This document shows, piece by piece, positions 21,330-28,107 of a stretch of DNA of 64,000 bases. The stretch is from Lactobacillus pasteurii DSM 23907 = CRBIP 24.76 (lineage in GTDB: Bacteria > Bacillota > Bacilli > Lactobacillales > Lactobacillaceae). Position numbers and translations under genes: made by a program. Each line of letters begins with the position of its first letter. Position 1 is the stretch's first letter. Location of the stretch: the NCBI RefSeq assembly GCF_000297025.1, contig NZ_CAKD01000021.1:62001-126000 (forward strand). The letters run 5' to 3'. A model generated the notes under the pieces. That model had not been told where the DNA came from and searched no databases. It was given only the letters and a program-made list of their open reading frames with translations.

Positions 21330-21857
21330 ATGGAAATCCTTGACTTGTACGATATCAACCGGCAAAAATTACCCGATCAAACAATGATTCGAGACCAATA
21401 TCAGCCAAAAGATACCTACAGAATTGCTTGCGGAGTCGTTATTTTTAATTCACAAGGTCAAATGCTAATTCAAAAACGCCATCAAGATAAGATTCTATTT
21501 CCAGGTATGTGGGACATTTCTGCTGCTGGATCTGTCATCAGCGGAGAAAGTAGTCAAATGGCTATTGAACGCGAACTCAAAGAAGAATTGGGATTGTCAG
21601 TTGATTTTAGCAATACTCGGCCAAAATTAACTACCCACTTTCCAGCAGGATTCTGTGACTTCTACACCCTTGAACTTGATGTAGACCTAGATGAGCTAAC
21701 TTTGCAAAAAGAAGAAGTAACTGCCGTAAAATGGGCTAGCTTAGCTGAAATAAATCAAATGATCTTTGCTCAAGAATTTATCCCTTACTTCAGCGATTTC
21801 ATCAATTTAATTGCAGTAATGGCCAAGAAACATGATCTATATTATAGCGAAGACTAA
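21330..21857 (+). CDS. Nudix hydrolase (isopentenyl-diphosphate isomerase-like fold)
   Basis: This is a 175-residue Nudix protein. The Nudix box is seen as GSVISGESSQMAIERELKEE followed by LGL (near 63-86), with the catalytic RE and EE present. The N-terminus (MEILDLYDINRQKL) and overall layout resemble the YfcD-like subgroup that is often annotated as a possible IPP isomerase relative or nucleotide-diphosphate hydrolase. The substrate is unknown. GAGGTGA precedes the ATG. Its 3' end overlaps the convergent membrane gene by four bases, with no terminator between. Confidence 0.85.
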   Translation: MEILDLYDINRQKLPDQTMIRDQYQPKDTYRIACGVVIFNSQGQMLIQKRHQDKILFPGMWDISAAGSVISGESSQMAIERELKEELGLSVDFSNTRPKLTTHFPAGFCDFYTLELDVDLDELTLQKEEVTAVKWASLAEINQMIFAQEFIPYFSDFINLIAVMAKKHDLYYSED

Positions 21858-22369
21858 ATTGCCTTAGTATAGCGCTTGTACATGATGATTGATATCCAAG
21901 CTGAAATAAACGATGGCAAGATAGTTAAGACAATCACATTAGGATCAAGGAAATTCCCCACTCGGATATATTCTCCTAACCCCTTGATGTGCTTTAAATT
22001 GCTAAAAATAGCTTGGTAAACTGTTACATAGATCAAAATCCATTGAATGTAGTATTCAATTAAGGTTAAGGTAGTATTTGAAAAGCGAATAACTTTACCA
22101 ATCAGTCGCATCCCCCAATAAAGCAGGATGCCTGATATCAAAATGAATAAAGCTAGGAGCATAAACAAGTTGCCAAAGTTGATATACTTGTCATTGCTCA
22201 TCAAAATAAAACTTACTAAAAAGAGCAGGATAAAATTAATGATCGAACAAATAATTTGAACTACAAAGATTATCCCAGCTTTAATCCATTGGTATCTATC
22301 TTCTGCCCGAAAAGTAACTATTAATCCTGTGACTATTAAGATTGATAAAAAGATATACGTTAATCGCAT
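21854..22369 (-). CDS. Integral membrane protein of unknown function
   Basis: This is a 171-residue protein with about five hydrophobic segments (2-19, 28-57, 66-90, 105-124 and 143-163) and few charged residues. It resembles a widespread Firmicute membrane family related to S. aureus SA1002, but I cannot name a function. The ATG at 22369 follows GGTGGG. It has no evident partner gene: it is convergent with the Nudix gene and divergent from the 47-residue small protein. Confidence 0.7.
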   Translation of the reverse strand: MRLTYIFLSILIVTGLIVTFRAEDRYQWIKAGIIFVVQIICSIINFILLFLVSFILMSNDKYINFGNLFMLLALFILISGILLYWGMRLIGKVIRFSNTTLTLIEYYIQWILIYVTVYQAIFSNLKHIKGLGEYIRVGNFLDPNVIVLTILPSFISAWISIIMYKRYTKAI

Positions 22370-22756: not shown

Positions 22757-24379
22757 TTAGTAAAGTTGTTCAACTCTATCTTGGATATCTTGACTATCTA
22801 AGAATTCGTCATAAGTGGTATCCATTCGGCTAATAATTCCCTTTGGTCCTACTTCGATGATATGGTTGGCAATCGTTTGAATAAACTCATGGTCGTGAGA
22901 AGTAAACAAGATTGACCCCTTGTAAGCTACCAAAGCATCGTTTAGCGAAGTAATTGATTCCAAATCTAAGTGGTTGGTTGGATCATCCATCACCAATACA
23001 TTCGCCGGTTGAAGCATTAATCTAGATAATTGACAACGAACCTTTTCACCACCGGAGAGAACATTGATCTTCTTTTCAATGTCATCCCCACTGAAAAGCA
23101 TTCTACCCAAGAAACCTCTTAAGAAAGTATTGTCGTCCTGTTCTTTATCAGCGTATTGACGTAGCCAATCTAAAATTGATAGATCATCATTGTTGAAGTT
23201 AGCGTTCAAATCGCGAGACATGTAATTAAAGGCGGTTGTTTGACCCCAAGTTACAGTGCCAGTGTCAGGCTTAATATTACCTACAATAATTTCCATCAAA
23301 GCAGTTGTAGCAACTGTATTTCTTGATAAGAATCCAACCTTGTCACCTGGACGAACAATGAATGATACGTTGTCTAAAAGCTTCTTGCCTTCAACAGAAT
23401 AAGAAACATTTTCAACTTTTAGTAAGTCATTACCTAAATCGCGGTGAAGATCAAACTTAACAAATGGGTATTTTCTTGATGATGGACGAATGTCATCAAG
23501 TGTGATTTTTTCAAGCTGTTTCTTTCTTGAAGTCGCTTGCTTTGATTTTGAGGCGTTGGCTGAGAATCTTGCAATAAATTCTTGCAACTCTTTGATCTTT
23601 TCTTCTTTTTTGGCATTTTGATTTGCGGCTAATTCAGCTGCCAGCTTACTTGACTTGTACCAGAAATCGTAATTACCAACATAAAGCGTAATCTTACCGA
23701 AGTCCACATCACACATTTGCGTACATACTTGATTCAAGAAGTGTCTGTCGTGCGAAACTACAATAACAATATTTGGATATTCGGCTAGGAAGTTCTCTAA
23801 CCATTCAACGGTATGAACATCCAAACCGTTAGTAGGTTCGTCCAAAAGCAAGATGTCAGGATTTCCAAATAAAGCTTGTGCTAGCAATACCTTAACCTTA
23901 GCTGATTCAGGGAAATCCTTCATTAGCATGTCATATTGGTCTTCAGTAAAGCCCATAGATTGTAACAATTTACCAGCATCGGCTTCTGCATTCCAGCCAT
24001 CTAGCTCAGCGAATTTGCTTTCTAATTCTGCAGCTCTAACTCCATCTTCATCGCTAAAATCAGGCTTAGCATAAAGAGCATCCTTTTCTTGCATTACTTG
24101 GTAGAGTTCTTTATGACCTTGGATAACCGTTTCCATGATTGAAAAATTATCAAAGGCAAAGTGGTCCTGGATTAAACTGGACATTCTTTCATTTGGATCA
24201 ATACTAATTTGACCGGTTGTTGGTTCAAATTGACCTTCAAGCAACTTTAGGAATGTAGACTTTCCTGCACCATTTGCTCCGATTACTCCATAACAATTTC
24301 CTGGAGTAAATTTCAAATTGACATCTTCATACAAGGTCTTTCCTGATAAGTTGAGACTTAAGTCTGAAACAGTGATCAT
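22757..24379 (-). CDS. ABC-F family ATPase (YkpA/YbiT type)
   Basis: This is a soluble protein of 540 residues with two ABC ATPase domains and no membrane part. The first has Walker A GANGAGKST (near 34-42), an altered signature region, and LLDEPTNGLD (near 176). Between them lies a charged inter-domain linker (P-site tRNA interaction motif, about 245-300). The second has a degenerate Walker A (GFLSRNTVATT near 352) but an intact LSGGE signature near 445 and VMDDPTNHLD. ABC-F proteins act on ribosomes, resolving stalls or protecting from antibiotics; the YkpA/YbiT group is mainly housekeeping. A structured RNA ending in a terminator lies immediately upstream, suggesting attenuation. Confidence 0.9.
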   Translation of the reverse strand: MITVSDLSLNLSGKTLYEDVNLKFTPGNCYGVIGANGAGKSTFLKLLEGQFEPTTGQISIDPNERMSSLIQDHFAFDNFSIMETVIQGHKELYQVMQEKDALYAKPDFSDEDGVRAAELESKFAELDGWNAEADAGKLLQSMGFTEDQYDMLMKDFPESAKVKVLLAQALFGNPDILLLDEPTNGLDVHTVEWLENFLAEYPNIVIVVSHDRHFLNQVCTQMCDVDFGKITLYVGNYDFWYKSSKLAAELAANQNAKKEEKIKELQEFIARFSANASKSKQATSRKKQLEKITLDDIRPSSRKYPFVKFDLHRDLGNDLLKVENVSYSVEGKKLLDNVSFIVRPGDKVGFLSRNTVATTALMEIIVGNIKPDTGTVTWGQTTAFNYMSRDLNANFNNDDLSILDWLRQYADKEQDDNTFLRGFLGRMLFSGDDIEKKINVLSGGEKVRCQLSRLMLQPANVLVMDDPTNHLDLESITSLNDALVAYKGSILFTSHDHEFIQTIANHIIEVGPKGIISRMDTTYDEFLDSQDIQDRVEQLY

Positions 24380-24457
24380 TAAGTTAGCAATTCCCTTCTA
24401 AAAACACTTATATCATTATTTGGTTAATTATACAGAATATTCAACGGTAATACCAAC

Positions 24458-24605
24458 AAAAAAGAGAAAAATTCCTCACACAGAATTTTCCTCTTAAAAG
24501 ATATATAAGAACATCTAGCATGTCTACCCTGAATGACATACCAGAAAAATAAATATGAGTATACCATGAGCTAATAGCTCCATACTAGGTAGTTGACCCT
24601 ACCCA
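24458..24605 (-). ncRNA. Structured leader RNA or small RNA upstream of the ABC-F gene
   Basis: Reading the minus strand, three hairpins follow each other: GGTAG/CTACC (24603-24588), AGTAT/ATACT enclosing GAGCT/AGCTC (24586-24558), and an 11-base-pair stem with a 10-base loop ATTCAGGGTA (24545-24514). A strong intrinsic terminator follows (stem 24495-24462, then a run of T). A weak -10 (TATAAC at 24612-24607) precedes them. A 19-codon frame with no clear ribosome binding site runs from 24583 to 24524. I cannot assign it to a known class: there is no T-box, and the ends do not pair as in 6S RNA. It is either an attenuator for the ABC-F gene or an independent small RNA. Confidence 0.6.
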
Positions 24606-24658
24606 AGTTATATTTTACCATGTTTTGGCAAAAAAAGGATATAGACGCTTTAGCCCCA

Positions 24659-25246
24659 CTAGTCTTCTAATCTATCTTCCACCCAGCCTTGCAATTCAGC
24701 TAAATGAAACTTTTGAACGGAACTAAAGGTCAAAAGCTGATCCTTGTCTCTTAAGCCCAAAGACTTTTTAATAACTGAAATAGCTTTATTCACCTGGCTT
24801 TTCTTAATCTTATCGATTTTTGTAGCTACAACCAAAATTGGAAGGTCAAGATATTGAGCGTATTGATACATAGCAATATCGTCTTGGGTTGGCTCATGTC
24901 GACCATCAACCAAGATCATCAAACCTTTTAAATTTTCTCGAGTTTCAAGATAGTCTTGAATCATTTCACCAAACTCTTGGCGCTTTTTTTGTGATACCTT
25001 AGCATATCCATACCCTGGTACGTCAACTAAATAAAATTCGCCATTGATTCGATAAAAATTTAAAGTTTGTGTCTTACCCGGTTGTGAAGACGTTCGAGCT
25101 AAATTTTTCCGATTGATTAAGGTATTGATCAAACTAGATTTTCCTACATTTGATCGACCGGCCAAAGCAATTTCAGGAAAATTATCTTTAGGGTATTGGC
25201 TTTCTTTAACTGCACTTACGGCATATTCACTCTTTTTAATTATCAT
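24659..25246 (-). CDS. engB: Ribosome biogenesis GTP-binding protein EngB (YsxC/YihA)
   Basis: This small essential GTPase of 195 residues assists late 50S subunit assembly. Walker A is in [13 protein letters not shown] (near 29-41), followed by the DVPGYGYA switch region and TKIDK near 146. I start it at the ATG at 25246, where AAAGG lies upstream, giving the same length as the Bacillus protein; an earlier ATG at 25264 lacks a site. It overlaps the end of clpX by 11 bases, and the clpX-engB pair is a common Firmicute arrangement. Confidence 0.95.
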
Positions 25247-26504
25247 TGGCTGAAACCTTTTCATCTAGTTCATCATCACTATGACGAATTATCTTTGGTT
25301 GAGCATGCTCTGTGATAACTTCTTTAGTTACTTGAACTTCCTTGATGTCATCATCACTTGGAGTTCTGAACATAATGTCCATTAATGCATTTTCAATAAT
25401 CGTTCTAAGGCCACGTGCACCCATATTTCTGTCAGTAGCTAGTTCTGCTATGGCCTGCAATGCATCAGGGTTAAAAGTCAATTTTACGTTATCTAGCGAT
25501 AATAATTTTTGGTATTGCTTAATCAATGCATTCTTTGGTTCAGTTAAAATTCGAATCAAGTCTTCATTGTTCAACTTGTTTAAAGTAGTAATTACCGGAA
25601 TTCTACCAATAAATTCTGGAATTAAACCAAATTTAACCAAATCGCCAGTAGTTAAGTGCTTAGTCCAATCATCAGCATCAACTGTGTTCAAATCGTTTTC
25701 TGCACCAAAACCGATAGTCTTCTTGCCTAAACGGTTCTTAACGATTTCTTCGATACCATCAAAGGCACCACCAACAATAAATAGAATATTAGTAGTATCC
25801 ATACGGATCATTTCTTGTTGTGGGTGCTTTCTACCACCTTGAGGTGGCACAGAAGCAATCGTACCTTCCAAAATCTTTAGCAAGGATTGTTGCACGCCTT
25901 CGCCTGATACATCACGAGTGATTGAGACATTTTCTGCCTTTTTAGAAATCTTATCAATTTCATCGATATAGATGATGCCTCGTTCTGCTCTTTCCAAATC
26001 GTAATCAGCATTTTGCAACAATTTTAGCAAGATATTTTCAACGTCTTCACCAACATAACCGGCTTCAGTCAATGTAGTAGCATCTGCAATTGCAAATGGC
26101 ACATTTAAGATTCTAGCTAGAGTTTGAGCCAAGTATGTTTTACCTGAACCTGTTGGTCCGATCATTGCAATGTTTGATTTTTGAAGTTGAGTTGATGAAT
26201 CAATATCTGCTTGGCCAATTCTCTTGTAGTGATTATAAACGGCTACTGATAAGACTCTCTTAGCGTAATCTTGACCAATTACATATTCATCAAGCTTTTC
26301 CTTGATTTCCATTGGCTTAGGCAATTCACTAGAACTCTTCAAATAATCAGCCTTTAGTTCATCGTCAATTATTCTCTTGCAAAGGTCCACACATTCATTA
26401 CAGATATAAACACCATTACCAGCAATAATCTTTTTTACTTCTGCTTGTGTTTTGCCGCAAAAAGAACATTTTATTTCTTCTTGTTCTGGGAACTGTGTTG
26501 GCAT
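25236..26504 (-). CDS. clpX: ATP-dependent Clp protease ATP-binding subunit ClpX
   Basis: ClpX is the AAA+ unfoldase that feeds tagged proteins to ClpP. The N-terminal zinc-binding domain has Cys13, 16, 35 and 38; Walker A GPTGSGKT is at 116-123, Walker [10 protein letters not shown] near 187, and the C-terminal lid carries [10 protein letters not shown]. The ClpP-binding IGF loop is seen in KKTIGFG. Length of 422 is normal. GGGGAG precedes the ATG. It is followed by engB and preceded by tig, as usual in Firmicutes; a terminator separates tig from clpX. Confidence 0.97.
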
Positions 26505-27961: not shown

Positions 27962-28013
27962 TAATTAAATACCTCCAATGTCAAATTTGAGTTTGCTACT
28001 TGCATACTAAAAT

Positions 28014-28042
28014 ATCTTACCTTAAACAGACTTAAATTACAA
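28014..28042 (-). promoter_or_regulatory. Promoter of tig
   Basis: On the minus strand TTGTAA (28042-28037) and TAAGAT (28019-28014) are 17 bases apart, about 50 bases before the start. Confidence 0.6.
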
Positions 28043-28052
28043 ATTTTAGGAT

Positions 28053-28090
28053 AAAAAAAGATACACTCCTTATGAAGAAGTGCATCTTTT
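28053..28090 (-). terminator. Intrinsic terminator after tuf
   Basis: AAAAGATGCACT and AGTGTATCTTTT pair on the minus strand, with extra CTT/AGG pairs inside, followed by T. Confidence 0.9.
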
Positions 28091-28107
28091 ACATATATCG
28101 TTAGAAA

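Follow-up and report, generated by a model that had tools for sequence, protein, structure and literature searches.

Within the window, i.e., the whole 64,000-nucleotide stretch of Lactobacillus pasteurii DNA considered here, the gap between engB and an ABC-F gene contains a structured element which, on a roughly even judgement of the sequence comparisons, would be a diverged representative of a structured-RNA family found in Lactobacillus. In its 'leader' form this RNA would precede, and be the leader of, a small FMN_bind gene, and in the ABC-F lineage it would instead be a self-contained, terminated transcript. The gap spans 24380-24658 (279 nt), with both of its flanking genes found on the minus strand. 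The features of the locus, in their direction of reading, are as follows.

24659..25264, minus strand: engB, the upstream gene, for a YsxC-type GTPase (open reading frame; NCBIfam TIGR03598, 238.5 bits versus a cut-off of 124.45).
24612..24620, minus strand: extended -10 TGGTAAAAT, the probable RNA promoter (sequence; TGATAGAAT at the equivalent place in L. gigeriorum).
24458..24611, minus strand: structured RNA, probable extent (fold; L. gigeriorum conservation; match of covariance model R3 to 24496-24610, 22.5 bits).
24586..24605, minus strand: P1 hairpin, with a stem like that of the family P1 and a shortened loop lacking AAGGGGAU (19 of 20 columns shared with L. gigeriorum).
24568..24580, minus strand: hairpin 2, conserved in neither sequence nor register (fold; L. 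gigeriorum comparison).
24515..24544, minus strand: hairpin 3, or P3 (in L. gigeriorum, two pairs changed on both sides, one on one side, none broken).
24496..24505, minus strand: pyrimidine-rich linker UAUAUCUUUU (identical in L. gigeriorum; a similar stretch in many family members).
24458..24495, minus strand: intrinsic terminator, that is, a 14-pair stem (24495-24462) plus a T-run to 24458 (terminator scan, fold; the same as L. gigeriorum at 32 of 38 columns).
24427..24456, minus strand: probable ABC-F promoter, TTGGTA-18-TATAAT (consensus matched at 10 of 12 positions; L. gigeriorum retains TATAAT).
22757..24379, minus strand: ABC-F ATPase gene, 540 aa (best NCBIfam model PRK15064, 674.6 bits, under that model's cut-off of 762).

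PRK15064 I take to be the YbiT type, and the ABC-F protein scores far under the cut-offs of the listed resistance-type ABC-F models of NCBIfam. Terminator scanning gave 5 sites with 1.9 expected. Promoter scanning was near chance, with 15 sites versus 12.3 expected, and the promoters proposed here thus rest instead on conservation. The window RNA is present as a single full copy in its own genome, and a repeat was rejected on that ground. A mobile element was rejected as well, there being no match in plasmids or phages, with the exact patterns also absent from viral contigs.

Folding of the minus strand from 24456 to 24620 (RNAfold) gives three hairpins plus the 14-pair terminator at -46.1 kcal/mol, with a z of -3.9 and 0 of 200 shuffles as low. 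With the terminator removed, z is -2.6 for the window RNA (3 of 300 shuffles as low) and -3.4 for the L. gigeriorum copy (1 of 300). The plus strand of the region also folds well (z -4.3), as inverted repeats must. It is the minus strand which is favoured, by the 4 G-U pairs that each of the two species has among its 28, by a T-run following the stem, and by the extended -10. A preliminary description of this DNA had proposed hairpins and a strong terminator on the ABC-F strand, and these are borne out at 24458-24611, by a fold which beats shuffles and which recurs in L. gigeriorum. Hairpin 3 indeed has the 11 pairs claimed for it (RNAfold) and a loop containing CAGGGTA. Three stem-loops do all fold in the window; the sequence and register of hairpin 2, however, are not kept in L. 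gigeriorum. Not conserved at all is the alternative pairing suggested for CAGGGTA with CTACC, which is seen in the window only, as in L. gigeriorum GGTAG (the complement of CTACC) occurs solely in the 5' arm of hairpin 1. The RNA was also described as new, and Rfam 15 accordingly offers no matching family at gathering threshold, whether in the window or in 8 family loci, with none found for three members at E up to 1; at a relaxed E of up to 10, there are 8 matches in the gap, all under threshold.

A plain DNA search of 75 Lactobacillus genomes (E up to 0.01) matched four, i.e., the window's own, that of L. gigeriorum DSM 23908 (G015; query 1-161 of 165, 73%), and two with short matches of 19 and 33 nt. 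L. gigeriorum, presumably the sister species of L. pasteurii, is the closest relative with the whole RNA, has the same gene order as the window, and keeps the stems, this being the only relative in which that search gave the whole RNA. A loss of the stems in relatives, named in the preliminary description as what would refute the RNA, is thus not what is seen. P1, hairpin 3, and the terminator have 28 pairs together, none broken between the two species: P1 is invariant, the terminator has three one-sided changes, and hairpin 3 retains all ten compared pairs, two by way of compensatory changes and a third with a one-sided change. Identity to L. gigeriorum is 95% in P1, 84% in the terminator, 61% in hairpin 3, 48% in the hairpin 2 region, and 69% over the whole RNA, versus 55-56% in the spacers on both sides of the RNA, 65% in the clpX-tig spacer, and 84% in the tig-tuf spacer. 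Conservation therefore sits in P1 and the terminator rather than in the RNA as a whole. The P1 loop in the fold is GGTCAA in the window and GATCAA in L. gigeriorum, with AAGGGGAU gone in both.

That latter motif belongs to a wider family, first seen in DNA upstream of ABC-F orthologues of other Lactobacillus species. Its members display a -10, then P1 with loop AAGGGGAU (present in 14 of 14 clear members), P2 (GGGUC...UAAGGACUU...GACCC), P3 (GUAUAUC...GGUAUAC), a linker which often is AUCUUUAUAUCUUUU, and a terminator. Three covariance models are distinguished here. R1 was built from the window and L. gigeriorum copies only, R2 from seven species with neither of those two among them, and R3 from the 14 members (13 of them distinct), with the window left out. 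A related RNA is clearly found in 14 of 75 Lactobacillus genomes: R2 gives 17 genomes at E up to 0.1, with 14 under 1e-13, one copy each, and 7 of these 14 were not used in building R2. R3 recovers the same 14 plus a decayed copy in G029 (39.3 bits). In a 397-genome family sample ('family' here in the taxonomic sense), with only 8 candidates scored per genome, R3 matched seven genomes, one of them marginally (E 0.0084) and the other six belonging to the same genus, and distant members in other genera may be missed by a search of that depth. R1 matched 19 of the 75 genus genomes, strongly at its two source copies and otherwise weakly (29.1 bits or less), and in the 397 genomes gave its own copy and two matches, of 33.9 and 35.9 bits. 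The R1 route was set aside, the alignments examined being mostly terminator-driven or poor.

Kept out of all counts are weak matches in G069, G059, G002, G021, G014, and G286, and at a second place in G015. G069 has an R2 E of 0.0023 and 34.7 bits from R3, yet shows neither the P1 loop motif nor the gene context. A regular-expression scan missed one member, G020, whose P1 arm differs. Ten regions beside the Mbeg1-like gene (below), from genomes without a clear copy, were without visible RNA and have a differing divergent neighbour (that of G002 is cut by a contig end), with R3, filters off, giving two matches there, at E 0.24 and 0.79.

Helix cells are paired at 93% in the 14-member alignment, versus 26-43% when the alignment is slid, and three pairs are changed on both sides. 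With an alignment that is itself fitted to the model, the covariation score of the family is reached by 0 of 500 shuffles, and the count of extra pair types, by contrast no better than chance, is reached by 219 of 500. RNAalifold on the 14 members predicts P1 and P3 but not P2, and does so with a covariation term of only -0.22; P1 hardly varies among members and hence is little tested by covariation. Folded alone, the P2 domain has an equivalent stem in 11 of 13 distinct members (not in G036 or G060), with its outer bases differing among species, e.g., GACGGUU/AACCGUC in G004. Mean fold z for the 13 is -3.4, ranging from -0.85 (G036) to -5.9.

All 14 clear members have an Mbeg1-like gene as divergent neighbour. 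The divergent promoter region holds a palindrome, ATAAC-N4-GTTAT, which ends 7-9 nt before the -10 of the RNA, with 0-1 mismatches in 12 of the 14 and two in the alike pair G060 and G013; it possibly is the operator of a regulator shared with the Mbeg1-like gene. It is the gene following the RNA which differs. In seven genomes that gene is ABC-F (G042, G016, G020, G026, G073, G036, G004), and in the other seven it is a small FMN_bind gene (G060, G068, G013, G027, G003, G010, G005), with ABC-F found elsewhere. One and the same leader thus would appear to have undergone a swap of the gene behind it. Downstream of ABC-F in the window, at 21854-22369, is a gene for an SA1002-family membrane protein, and in several loci of the FMN_bind type a membrane ORF of similar appearance comes after FMN_bind.

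The two sides differ also in how the terminator is placed. On the FMN_bind side, the end of the terminator stem lies 21-27 nt from the start codon in six of the seven (G060 and G013 being alike there), and because of that proximity no promoter would seem to fit between terminator and gene in those six genomes. In the seventh, G005, the script found no terminator, and the linker AUAUCCUUU instead pairs, in the fold, with the Shine-Dalgarno (SD) region AAAGAGGAUA. On the ABC-F side, the same distance is 54-116 nt (82 in the window, 73 in L. gigeriorum), and a -10 resembling TG-n-TATAAT, as read by eye, lies between terminator and ABC-F in all seven ABC-F-side members and in both window-type species.

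FMN_bind domains as such are common: at E up to 1e-10, 54 of the 75 genomes have them, for the most part within large proteins. Orthologues of the small gene, at 68% identity or more, are found in just nine of the 75, i.e., the seven with the leader, G029 with its decayed copy, and G072, from which the RNA is gone. In the ABC-F tree, all nine species fall into a single clade (100/100), and in them ABC-F stands elsewhere, without the family RNA. G072 may be viewed as a natural leader loss, with FMN_bind present, no RNA, and, about 30 nt upstream of the start codon, a TATAAT. That TATAAT is without the family palindrome and is equated with the RNA promoter by position only. It is because of terminator placement, orthologue distribution, G072, and the FMN_bind clade that the family is read here as an FMN_bind 5' leader, with the ABC-F side secondary.

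In the FMN_bind form, then, the RNA would be the 5' UTR of the small FMN_bind gene, with polymerase starting before P1 and, by default, stopping at the terminator that immediately precedes the start codon. A signal read by P1-P3 would let polymerase through. In the second lineage, the slot after the terminator would have come to be occupied by ABC-F, which brings a promoter of its own, so that the RNA is left as a terminated transcript complete in itself. The copies in the window and L. gigeriorum would be a worn form of that latter type, with the window transcript running from about 24606 to 24458 and seldom reading into ABC-F. A short, terminated transcript is the simplest reading of the window RNA because the ABC-F promoter follows the terminator, and such a transcript, whether relic or small RNA, likely is what the window copy gives.

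How a signal might be passed to the terminator was considered in several ways. Neither a P1 loop-linker switch (Fisher 0.43) nor a P2 loop-linker switch (Fisher 0.17, with the G004 P2 loop mis-picked by the script) pairs any better than do shuffled linkers. Pairing of linker with SD gives a weak signal (Fisher 0.02), which three FMN_bind members drive (G003, G010, G005). Targeting by CsrA, via GGA in hairpin loops, was rejected given PF02599 in 0 of 75 genomes, in a search whose control was found in 3 of 14 named genomes.

As to whether the window copy belongs to this family, it is absent from the R2 matches at E up to 10. The best R3 match within the gap does sit on the window RNA, in register for P1, P3, and linker/tail, with 22.5 bits (E 5e-5 for 281 nt) and the next at 6.3. 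For the L. gigeriorum RNA, R3 gives 18.2 bits with filters off, next 10.0 within 3.1 kb, and misses it under default filters. R3, though, scores 21-24 bits at unrelated places in four other matches, and 34.7 bits in G069, and since equal scores thus occur elsewhere by chance, the window score is significant only locally. Two family traits seen in 14 of 14 members are absent: the AAGGGGAU loop, missing from the window and L. gigeriorum, and the divergent Mbeg1-like neighbour, in place of which the window has engB upstream (both the window genome and L. gigeriorum have a single Mbeg1-like gene, on another contig). The palindrome is absent from both as well. In the ABC-F tree, which leaves out G016 and G036, the window and L. 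gigeriorum pair (90/95), and they group weakly (68/87) with the five included ABC-F-side RNA species. The window copy, because it is missing the AAGGGGAU loop, is probably best called a diverged relative of the family rather than a full member, possibly a fading one. The case for linking it to the family is made by the local R3 match, together with its position before the same ABC-F, its strand, and its order of terminator, promoter, and gene; its descent from that family is what we infer from these.

From a different perspective, the window copy might be solely a fading relic, that is, a former leader whose target gene was lost from this lineage and which is retained above all as a transcription terminator behind clpX-engB. 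Loss of the palindrome and the Mbeg1-like neighbour, together with the worn P1 loop and P2, would fit with that, as too would the existence of decayed (G029) and lost (G072) copies, and the P2 region at 48% and the whole RNA at 69% identity compare with 65% for the clpX-tig spacer. Set against this wear are a hairpin 3 which keeps all ten of its pairs via two compensatory changes and a P1 which is 95% identical, and a relic in this strict sense is therefore possible but on the improbable side. Alternatively, the RNA, of about 150 nt, could act in trans as a small RNA in its own right, having a promoter and a terminator of its own, and any FMN_bind leader role would be secondary; an independent small RNA had been allowed for in the preliminary description. 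Promoter-like sites on either side of the RNA in genomes of the ABC-F and window types, the retention of P1 and terminator by L. gigeriorum, and a family P1 loop found in 14 of 14 are all what one might expect of such an RNA. The lack of room for a promoter ahead of the gene in 6 of 7 FMN_bind-type genomes is not, however, nor is the RNA-less G072, which keeps TATAAT directly before its FMN_bind gene, and as an account of the family this reading seems rather unlikely.

Returning to the preferred reading, that of a leader of FMN_bind, the family resembles terminator-type riboswitches and other 5' attenuator leaders in having a structured 5' part and then an intrinsic terminator directly before the FMN_bind start codon. 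The terminator-before-gene arrangement, without a promoter in between, is seen in 6 of 7 FMN_bind-type genomes, and not on the ABC-F side. Unlike those riboswitches, the family has no ligand assigned to it, and neither a conserved anti-terminator nor an Rfam match was found. With the FMN riboswitch (RFN), the sole likeness is the flavin link of the FMN_bind gene, as the three members searched are without Rfam match at E up to 1. That link nonetheless supplies a concrete first guess at a ligand. It may be imagined that a signal tied to flavins or redox state is sensed by the invariant AAGGGGAU loop to control FMN_bind, in what would be a new Lactobacillus riboswitch class, with a gene swap in the ABC-F lineage having freed the RNA as a small RNA and the window representing a late stage, though this fuller scenario is speculative and rather unlikely.

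Six motifs have been described from Lactobacillales (asd, L17 downstream element, lactis-plasmid, Lacto-int, Lacto-rpoB, and Lacto-usp; PMC2864571, going by the portions available). Like the present family, these are computationally found RNAs of the same order. Unlike what would be expected of a shared identity, there is no Rfam match to those that are Rfam-numbered, Lacto-int being outside of that comparison as it lacks an Rfam number in the table concerned. The word Lactobacillus is absent from the main text, as available, of PMC11109978 and PMC8632094, and no report of this RNA was found in the literature searched, coverage of which was partial. The family, without counterpart in Rfam 15, is a good candidate for an orphan leader, adding to the leader-type structured RNAs a family whose loop motif is tightly kept and behind which a gene swap appears to have taken place. 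Its members form a natural series: a leader with terminator, a leader possibly pairing with the SD, a leader lost, a leader decayed, and a leader ahead of another gene that has a promoter of its own. That series makes the step from cis-acting leader to independent RNA testable in lactobacilli.

There is, lastly, the suggestion that the RNA is an attenuator of the ABC-F gene, perhaps answering ribosome-targeting antibiotics. The vmlR leader of Bacillus subtilis consists of a translated upstream ORF (uORF) in the first hairpin, an anti-terminator, and an SD hairpin, with the gene in the same transcript (PMC9226507, in the portions available). The window RNA is like that leader in its ABC-F gene, its several hairpins, and its intrinsic terminator, and is unlike it in that the window-family RNA is without a conserved uORF and a promoter-like site follows its terminator. 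More generally, the conserved short leader ORF of uORF-type ABC-F attenuators (vmlR, msrD) is absent from the family. Attenuation of ABC-F is very improbable despite a same-strand terminator ahead of that gene, an RNA which precedes ABC-F in 9 of 16 genomes with a clear or window-type copy, and the use of such leaders by antibiotic-resistance ABC-F genes (PMC9226507, as available), since 9 of 9 have a promoter-like site past the terminator, half of the clear members stand before another gene, no upstream ORF is conserved, resistance-type models score far under their cut-offs, nine FMN_bind-clade species have ABC-F elsewhere without this RNA, and the CAGGGTA/CTACC switch is not conserved.

An ORF list covering 17 leaders contains no conserved uORF, and a conserved small ORF within the RNA was likewise discarded as a candidate. 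A frame reading GGT CAT AAT AAG GAC TTA does recur in several FMN_bind leaders, where it coincides with the P2 stem. Three leaders (L121, L125, L126) have possible 7-codon ORFs, xGH(N/Y)KDL, some 35-60 nt past the RNA start, with start codons that vary; these overlap the P2 stem and loop and may be coincidence.

Elsewhere in the window, the tig-tuf spacer (27962-28107), at its 84% identity to L. gigeriorum, equals the tig coding sequence in conservation and may hold a conserved tuf leader.
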